This document shows, piece by piece, positions 43,751 to 44,656 of a DNA stretch of 64,000 bases. Where the stretch lies: contig JAJFVF010000007.1 of NCBI GenBank assembly GCA_021371935.1, positions 1 to 64,000 of the forward strand. Direction: 5' to 3'. Numbering within the stretch: the first letter of the stretch is position 1; every line of letters starts with the position of its first letter. The position numbers and the translations under genes are program-made. The notes beneath the pieces are model-generated. The model made no database searches, was not told the origin of the DNA, and worked only from the letters and a program-made list of their open reading frames with translations. Origin of the DNA: a bacterium. Its GTDB lineage: Bacteria; Armatimonadota; UBA5829.

Positions 43751-43827
43751 GGCGGAGTACCTCAGCTGGTTAGAGGACCCGGCTCATACCCGGGGCGTCG
43801 TCGGTTCGAGCCCGACCTCCGCTACCA
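43751..43827 (+). tRNA. tRNA-Met (anticodon CAT), probably elongator
   Basis: A full cloverleaf: acceptor GGCGGAG/CTCCGCT (with G1-U72), D-stem CCTC/GAGG, anticodon stem CCCGG/CCGGG with loop CTCATAC (CAT at 43785-43787), variable loop GCGTC, T-stem GTCGG/CCGAC with loop TTCGAGC, and encoded CCA. The anticodon stem lacks the three consecutive G-C pairs of initiators, and 11-24 is C-G, so an elongator is favoured. tRNA-Ile2 (lysidine) is the other possibility. Confidence 0.9.
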
Positions 43828-43849: not shown

Positions 43850-44416
43850 TCATCCAGCAGCGCTGGGAACCACTTCTCTTTCAGGCGCATGAGTATTCGG
43901 CTTGTGGTCGAACACGGGCAGATAGTCTCTCCAAACTTCGTTATTTGCGCCGGCCATGAACTTTGTCAGGCTGATGAACGGTACATATTTCGGTTTTTTC
44001 GGCATTTGCTTGAGAGTGTAATTAAGCTGAGAGAGGGTCTTGTCGCCTTTTTTTGCATTGCACTTCTTGCAGCAGGCCACAAGGTTATCCCATGTGTTTT
44101 GTCCGCCGAGCCTTCGGGGGATCACGTGATCCACTGTCAAATCGCTGCTCTTATGCCCGCAATACTGGCATGTATAGTTGTCTCTGGCAAGTATGCTGCG
44201 CCTCGAGAGTTTGAGCTGTGGCACAGGCCGTCTTACATGGGTTCTGAGCCTGACGACCGACGGCGAGACATAAGTGGCGCTTACGGTGTGAATCGTCTTG
44301 GGGCTTTCGTGAAGCACATCGACTTTGCCCAGAAACACAAGCGATATCGCCCGCCTGATGTTGCAGATATTGAGCGGCTCATAGTCGCTGTTTAGGACGA
44401 GGACATCATGATTCAT
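43850..44416 (-). CDS. HNH endonuclease
   Basis: 188 aa from ATG 44416. An N-terminal domain (VLVLNSDYEPLNICNIRRAI) is followed by an HNH nuclease module: CQYCG knuckle, LTVDHVIPRRLGG, NTWDNLVACC and KKCNAKKGDKT. This layout is the common stand-alone bacterial 'HNH endonuclease' (often about 170-190 aa) whose natural role is unclear: repair, restriction or mobile-element origin. GGGAGAG precedes the ATG by about 9 nt. A longer reading from 44458 runs through the terminator of the small gene upstream and is rejected. Confidence 0.85.
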   Translation of the reverse strand: MNHDVLVLNSDYEPLNICNIRRAISLVFLGKVDVLHESPKTIHTVSATYVSPSVVRLRTHVRRPVPQLKLSRRSILARDNYTCQYCGHKSSDLTVDHVIPRRLGGQNTWDNLVACCKKCNAKKGDKTLSQLNYTLKQMPKKPKYVPFISLTKFMAGANNEVWRDYLPVFDHKPNTHAPEREVVPSAAG

Positions 44417-44435
44417 AATACCGAACTCTCCCAAC

Positions 44436-44471
44436 AAAAAAGCCCACGCCTGACACAAAGTCAGCGTGGGC
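44436..44471 (-). terminator. Rho-independent terminator of the small 42-codon gene
   Basis: On the minus strand GCCCACGCTGAC (44471-44460) pairs with GTCAGGCGTGGGC (44454-44442), one bulge, loop of five, then six Ts (44441-44436). Confidence 0.9.
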
Positions 44472-44476
44472 CATTT

Positions 44477-44605
44477 CTAAGTAATGTCATACAGCCAGTG
44501 TTGGTGATGCATACGCGAGCACATGCCGTCTTCCAGGATTCGCAGAGAGTGCGCTCTGGAGCCGCCGACGAAGTTAGTTGTTTGTGATATCGTCATCGAT
44601 GGCAT
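44477..44605 (-). CDS. Small ORF (42 aa) forming its own transcription unit
   Basis: ATG 44605 to TAG 44477 encodes 42 residues beginning MPSMTISQTTNFVGGSRAHS and ending HHQHWLYDIT. AGGTGA (44620-44615) lies 9 nt before the ATG; a consensus promoter lies further upstream and a strong terminator begins 5 nt after the stop. No transmembrane helix or known motif is visible; the C-terminal third is His-rich (MHHQHW). I do not recognise it. Alternatives are a small structured RNA whose ORF is accidental, or a leader peptide, although the terminator separates it from the HNH gene downstream. Confidence 0.5.
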   Translation of the reverse strand: MPSMTISQTTNFVGGSRAHSLRILEDGMCSRMHHQHWLYDIT

Positions 44606-44621
44606 AAGCGTGTTTCACCTA

Positions 44622-44656
44622 CTCACATTGTAACAGCATATGTGAGCATGTGTCAA
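44622..44656 (-). promoter_or_regulatory. Consensus promoter with operator-like inverted repeat for the small gene
   Basis: On the minus strand: TTGACA (44656-44651), 18-bp spacer, TACAAT (44632-44627). CTCACAT and ATGTGAG (44646-44640 and 44628-44622) form a perfect 7-bp inverted repeat with 11-nt spacing that spans the -10, a likely repressor or regulator site. It overlaps the end of the oxidoreductase gamma gene. Confidence 0.75.

Follow-up and report, generated by a model that had tools for sequence, protein, structure and literature searches.

A conserved leader ORF reaching a terminator upstream of a small HNH endonuclease gene suggests ribosome-mediated attenuation in Armatimonadota

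Does a compact group of a promoter, a ribosome site, a 42-codon open reading frame (ORF) and a strong terminator constitute a transcription unit of its own, or does it belong to the gene that follows it? The preliminary description of the window, i.e. the whole 64,000-nucleotide stretch of DNA analysed here, regarded such a group as a complete miniature transcription unit which could encode a new small protein or a regulated small RNA. All of these parts are indeed present, on the minus strand and ahead of a gene encoding an HNH endonuclease (Table 1). They also lie where they had been placed, between an oxidoreductase operon, represented by a 2-oxoacid oxidoreductase gamma-type ORF ending at position 44653 on the other side of the unit, and the HNH gene. 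Comparison of this locus with its counterparts in other genomes suggests that these parts together make up the 5' leader of that gene and act as a ribosome-mediated transcription attenuator, a reading to which we give a probability of roughly three in four.

Table 1. Positions in the window of the elements of the leader and of the HNH gene
Feature	Position	Strand	Basis or remark
-35 hexamer TTGACA	44651..44656	-	invariant in four genus members
Extended -10 hexamer TACAAT, preceded at one base by TG	44627..44632	-	sequence; sister-species alignment
Inverted repeat CTCACAT-N11-ATGTGAG	44622..44646	.	present in the sequence, unconserved
Shine-Dalgarno AGGTGA of the leader ORF	44615..44620	-	AGGTGA or AGGAG retained in close relatives
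Leader ORF, 42 codons, MPSMTISQTTNFVGGSRAHSLRILEDGMCSRMHHQHWLYDIT	44477..44605	-	stop included; homologues and coding selection
Conserved peptide core GGSRAHSLRILEDGMCSRMH	44507..44566	-	homologue alignment, profile
Hairpin of the intrinsic terminator, separating leader ORF from HNH gene	44442..44471	-	fold; covariation
Terminator T-run	44436..44441	-	sequence
HNH ribosome site GGGAG	44428..44432	-	sequence
HNH endonuclease gene, 188 aa, proposed target of control	43850..44416	-	ATG at 44416

The promoter, TTGACA-N18-TACAAT (44656-44627, minus strand), has an 18-nt spacer and agrees with the consensus at 11 of 12 positions. The predicted transcript start falls approximately at the Shine-Dalgarno sequence, implying a very short 5' untranslated region. 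The leader ORF runs from the ATG at 44605 to the TAG at 44479-44477 and is followed by the terminator (44471-44436), which reads GCCCACGCTGAC-TTTGT-GTCAGGCGTGGGC-TTTTTT and forms a stem of 12 bp with one bulge. The HNH gene starts about 20 nt beyond the T-run on the same strand, a point left out of the description as a complete unit, and no second sigma-70-like promoter was found on that strand from the leader promoter to the HNH start, so that the recognisable path to the HNH gene runs through the terminator. At its 3' end, the HNH gene is convergent with a tRNA-Met (CAT) gene (43751-43827, plus strand), and a tRNA-like stretch also comes after the HNH gene in several relatives (L002, L003, L010 and L011).

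An operator had also been proposed, based on the perfect inverted repeat CTCACAT-N11-ATGTGAG. The repeat is present, but it is broken in each of the three sister species whose promoter could be aligned, and the suggested search for it near other genes revealed no further copy in the whole 3.54-Mb genome. When up to two mismatches were tolerated, 28 of 100 shuffled versions of the window yielded a match. The operator reading was rejected on the grounds of the absence of conservation and the single genomic copy, and the repeat is probably a product of chance.

The leader ORF bears the marks of a coding sequence. Relatives of the host genome in public collections, among them an Armatimonadetes MAG, place it in Armatimonadota. 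Three sister species, recovered by DNA search, keep the promoter, the ORF frame and the terminator, and a peptide profile gathers seven confident members from two genera whose common core is approximately GGSRAHSLRxLEDGxCVRQH. Indels internal to the ORF are multiples of three and the frame is maintained; dN is lower than dS in each species pair where both could be computed, as the synonymous/non-synonymous comparison advised in the preliminary description would have it for a protein. The conservative-codon score exceeds those of all 2000 column shuffles (P<0.0005), with four, five or seven species, the rows of the codon alignment having been pre-aligned as proteins and the core being ungapped. 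Judged from these patterns of substitution and indels, the 42-aa ORF is genuinely coding, and since it is under coding selection the unit is not a plain non-coding RNA; the outcome that had been foreseen as contrary to a small protein, an RNA structure conserved in place of the frame, did not materialise. Conservation is confined to about 20 residues, the N- and C-terminal parts being free in both sequence and length. No family of Pfam, NCBIfam or PADLOC matches the 42-aa peptide, in agreement with the earlier proposal of a new small protein, and no relative of it was found to be encoded on viral contigs. A PDB sequence search with the peptide returned weak matches to ribosomal protein L17 (E 0.5) and the peptide profile gave weak matches in genomes G011, G013 and others, all of which were judged to be due to chance. 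The leader of one homologue (L004, in G001) carries a 24-nt insert (alignment columns 143-166) between the Shine-Dalgarno sequence GAGGAG and the ATG; it contains a perfect 7-bp hairpin, TATGTCG...CGACATA, the folding of which would restore the usual spacing of about 10 nt.

The linkage of this ORF to the HNH gene is constant. The parts of the presumed miniature unit are real, but all seven confident homologues, from two genera, show the order leader, terminator and same HNH gene; given this and the unconserved operator, the idea of a stand-alone unit is not upheld. The gene upstream of the leader varies among them: it encodes a ferredoxin oxidoreductase subunit in G000 and G004, a hydrogenase-type protein in G001 and other products in G002, G006 and G010, and in G003 it is a divergent, DNA-glycosylase-like gene, for which reason the terminator is not simply that neighbour's own. 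Six genomes of the host's family have no HNH gene above the cut-off applied, and no convincing leader was found in any of them.

Of 291 Armatimonadota genomes, 254 carry the HNH gene, and the plan of promoter, leader ORF, terminator and HNH gene is largely repeated across the 109 genomes of the phylum in which the upstream region was examined. Ahead of the terminator, 61% of 108 regions contain a sigma-70 match of at least 10/12, a level reached by 1.5% of shuffles, with a median of 186 nt from the end of the -10 hexamer to the terminator stem. Upon iteration, the peptide profile recruited, in order, G015 (E 8e-13), G016, G018 and G075, and later G027, G026, G065, G104 and G106. All of these recruits lie on the sense strand immediately 5' of the HNH gene, and in the antisense control the best E was never below 0.12 and the threshold was never reached. 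The profile covers some families only and the motifs of distant families were partly chosen by eye; similar peptides recognised in this way elsewhere, such as SRRLRLLADSFEHVHRQHAIGRRRA in G090 and its relatives, are missed by the profile. A third clade-specific motif, RWSTGSWF[GY]xR, is displayed by f31 and f32 leaders (e.g. L113 in G210 and L108 in G117) and likewise precedes a terminator and the HNH gene. Some of the HNH upstream regions of Armatimonadota lack a terminator or a recognisable leader, and the gap between terminator and HNH gene reaches 60-130 nt in some lineages. Beyond the phylum, no leader with terminator comparable to these was evident before the HNH relatives located on plasmids of Acaryochloris, Nonomuraea, Tsukamurella and Persicobacter, a small sample in which a hairpin before the Nonomuraea gene is the exception.

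The terminator and its distance from the ORF are conserved features of the leader. In the terminator alignment, 96% of cells are paired and five of the ten pairs show compensatory change, both sides having changed, against a shuffle mean of 1.9; as read from this alignment, the terminator is conserved as a structure, through compensatory change. The covarying stems, together with the parts conserved in the sister species and the coding score, confirm the initial impression that this assemblage exceeds chance. In 23 of 24 leaders for which a terminator was located, the stop codon either begins within the stem or precedes it by no more than 4 nt, when flanking A-U pairs are included in the stems, and in the remaining one it is 10 nt ahead; at the window locus, 5 nt separate the TAG from the G-C stem. 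The same routine applied to ordinary terminators in about 389 kb of the host genome gave a median stop-stem spacer of 33-38 nt, with none of 20-32 within 3 nt. This sample holds at least two other attenuator-like arrangements, a count which is a lower bound because the routine missed the HNH locus itself, the stop-stem distances being unaffected. A comparable regularity was observed for the peptide motif L-R-x-L-E/A-D-G/S, the Asp of which is located at a median of 16 residues from the stop (IQR 15-18; 25 leaders from many families). In the large family f16, which is probably Fimbriimonadaceae, the leader ORF extends across the hairpin in the direction of the HNH start, and the Trp codon of its motif (R/W)PPxWxDTIIR is found 42.0 +/- 1.7 nt before the stem (17 genomes, range 39-46). 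The feature common to the leader families thus seems to be the distance from motif to terminator.

Other leaders have peculiarities of their own. Those of genus g4 (L035 in G007, L032 in G011) start with MSDDD and, like those of f16, apparently enter or cross the terminator, those of genus g20 (L130 in G044, L052 in G030, L055 in G224 and L128 in G228) share QQDxHWxxHRFGHVMRxR and end at the terminator, and histidine-rich tails occur on the leaders of some other families.

These characteristics can be combined into a model of attenuation. RNA polymerase would start at the TTGACA/TACAAT promoter, transcribe the leader ORF and reach the terminator at or just after the stop codon. A ribosome following closely and standing on the end of the leader ORF would mask the 5' arm of the hairpin, leaving the terminator unfolded and allowing read-through into the HNH gene; with the leader untranslated, or the ribosome lagging or gone, the terminator would fold and only a leader RNA of about 180 nt would be made. 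The motif would be within the exit tunnel once the ribosome is at the stop and probably tunes its dwell, through nascent-chain pausing or arrest. As is expected of an attenuator, a short ORF under coding selection, with its start and ribosome site, precedes the structural gene, an intrinsic terminator lies between them, and the stop codon is placed at the stem, where the position of a ribosome can affect the folding of the hairpin. An arrest peptide, too, would be expected to keep certain residues at a set distance from its arrest site, as the motif does here from stop or stem. Attenuators of the trp/his type, which respond to amino-acid starvation, do not fit this pattern, the leader having neither a codon run nor a conserved alternative helix. 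No conserved antiterminator was found, the 6-7 bp complements of the 5' arm varying between species, so that the ribosome alone would carry the control.

The direction of the response, with translation switching the HNH gene on, is presumed from E. coli terminators near stop codons (PMC4824070). There, translating ribosomes suppress an intrinsic terminator a few bases past a stop almost completely, termination recovers with the distance from the stop and is maximal beyond about 27-30 nt, and uncoupling of translation fully restores it (PMC4824070). In light of these data, a stop fused to the stem is the expected look of a terminator controlled by translation; the same data also permit a terminator that is simply leaky and unregulated (PMC4824070). 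A nascent-chain pause at the stop is plausible by analogy with TnaC and SpeFL, in which the conserved residues are likewise within the exit tunnel at that moment (PMC8429421). Going further, the leaders could be nascent-chain sensors throughout the phylum, in which the core L-R-x-L-E/A-D-G/S and clade variants such as PPxWxDTIIR and RWSTGSWF would arrest ribosomes at the terminator-fused site, a cellular signal, be it a metabolite, an antibiotic or stress on translation, thereby turning on an IshB-like HNH nuclease, a relative of the protein supposed to have given IscB and Cas9 their HNH domain; we put forward this extension tentatively, and rather doubt it as a whole.

The presumably regulated protein contains an HNH domain, the best NCBIfam match being the HNH part of IscB, under the model cut-off, and the structural neighbours of the domain are the HNH domains of Cas9 and IscB. 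The protein has no RuvC, being too short to contain one and matching HNH models only. According to what Altae-Tran is said to have reported in 2021, IshB consists of PLMP and HNH only. In an AlphaFold2 model (mean pLDDT 78), the N-terminal part of our HNH protein forms a beta-beta-alpha-beta-beta unit, and PLMP domains are described as beta-beta-alpha-beta-beta (PMC9581776), suggesting that the regulated protein is possibly IshB-like. Profile comparison with the PLMP of IsrB gave no match and Pfam RRXRR was hit with E=0.16 in one member only; as these sequence tests of PLMP are negative or marginal, "IshB-like" is to be taken as a lead, not as an assignment. The PLMP domain of IsrB contacts a hairpin bearing IsrB's own Shine-Dalgarno sequence (PMC9581776), and a similar feedback at the HNH locus is conceivable by analogy.

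Three other explanations were weighed against attenuation. The leader ORF may encode a small protein acting in trans, for instance a partner of the HNH protein or an inhibitor of it, with the terminator as a gene end that determines how much of one product is made relative to the other. The conservation of amino acids, the constant pairing with the HNH gene and the strong promoter would suit such a protein, which we nevertheless hold to be unlikely: a mere 20 or so residues are conserved between freely varying termini, the stop fused to the stem and the fixed distance from motif to terminator are left unexplained, the f16 ORF crosses the hairpin, and expression of the HNH gene must still pass the terminator. 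Much less probable still is a structured regulatory or guide RNA in which the ORF would be incidental, either riboswitch-like or comparable to the omega-RNA of IscB. The guide RNA of IscB (HEARO) is located upstream of the IscB gene, and such a role would agree with the IscB-like HNH domain, with a fold of the leader RNA somewhat better than that of shuffles (z -2.2) and with a weak hairpin in the core region which, in seven close relatives, scores above shuffled columns. In most other families keeping the peptide motif, however, the pairing of this helix is no better than that of slid versions, the coding signal opposes an incidental ORF, and the lack of room for RuvC opposes an IscB-like effector. 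At gathering scores, Rfam matched only 5S rRNA and tRNA in the window, the HEARO/omega-RNA model being unmatched. The non-coding RNA reading was rejected on this negative Rfam result and the restriction of the internal hairpin to close relatives, and beyond the terminator the regulated small RNA proposed in the preliminary description finds no conserved fold in its favour.

An ordinary gene layout, where the terminator would stop upstream read-in or leak and the HNH gene would have a promoter of its own that escaped recognition, appears just as improbable as a guide RNA. It could account for the position of the promoter in the window, after an operon with no other terminator, and for the longer terminator-HNH gaps of some lineages. 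Against it are the gap of only about 20 nt here, the divergent upstream gene of G003, the phylum-wide conservation of a dedicated promoter at its median distance of about 186 nt from the stem, and the scarcity of other attenuator-like arrangements, of which the 389-kb sample showed two, a lower bound. Attenuation by the translating ribosome is the reading that we retain.

Leader peptides combined with premature terminators make up a known class of regulatory element. Such peptides usually evolve fast and occur clade by clade before biosynthetic or resistance genes. A literature search covering few subscription papers found nothing relevant on leader peptides of Armatimonadota or on attenuation of HNH genes. 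Short ORFs before operons often prove to be leaders that were mistaken for genes (PMC2965389). A close parallel is the pyrBI attenuator of E. coli (PMC4824070, citing Roland et al.), in which a short leader ORF also reaches an intrinsic terminator, a close ribosome blocks the hairpin, and the dependence on stop-terminator distance is steep, steeper than in the E. coli measurements above (PMC4824070). In pyrBI, the ribosome is coupled by polymerase pausing and no conserved peptide motif is described (PMC4824070), whereas the HNH leader has a conserved peptide and a nuclease as its target. TnaC and SpeFL (PMC8429421) share with it a conserved leader peptide acting near the stop, a fixed distance from residues to stop and control of downstream transcription; they differ in that TnaC works by blocking Rho, tryptophan and ornithine serve as ligands and the sequences are unrelated, arrest and ligand being only putative for the HNH leader. 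The ilvB-II motif of Corynebacterium, a conserved region from a search for structured RNAs, similarly turned out to contain a leader uORF, but of an amino-acid biosynthesis operon and in one genus (PMC10272879). As for the target, it resembles the IshB/IscB/IsrB proteins by its size of about 185 aa, the PLMP-like N-terminal fold of its model and an HNH domain nearest to those of IscB and Cas9 (PMC12477157, PMC9581776), and departs from them in having no RuvC, no guide RNA found and a PLMP homology insignificant by sequence. Compared with these systems, a leader-terminator module of fixed geometry appears to have been retained before one small HNH nuclease gene across a phylum. It offers a handle on when bacteria make this near-universal, uncharacterised nuclease, and its many diverged leaders constitute a natural set for finding new arrest peptides.
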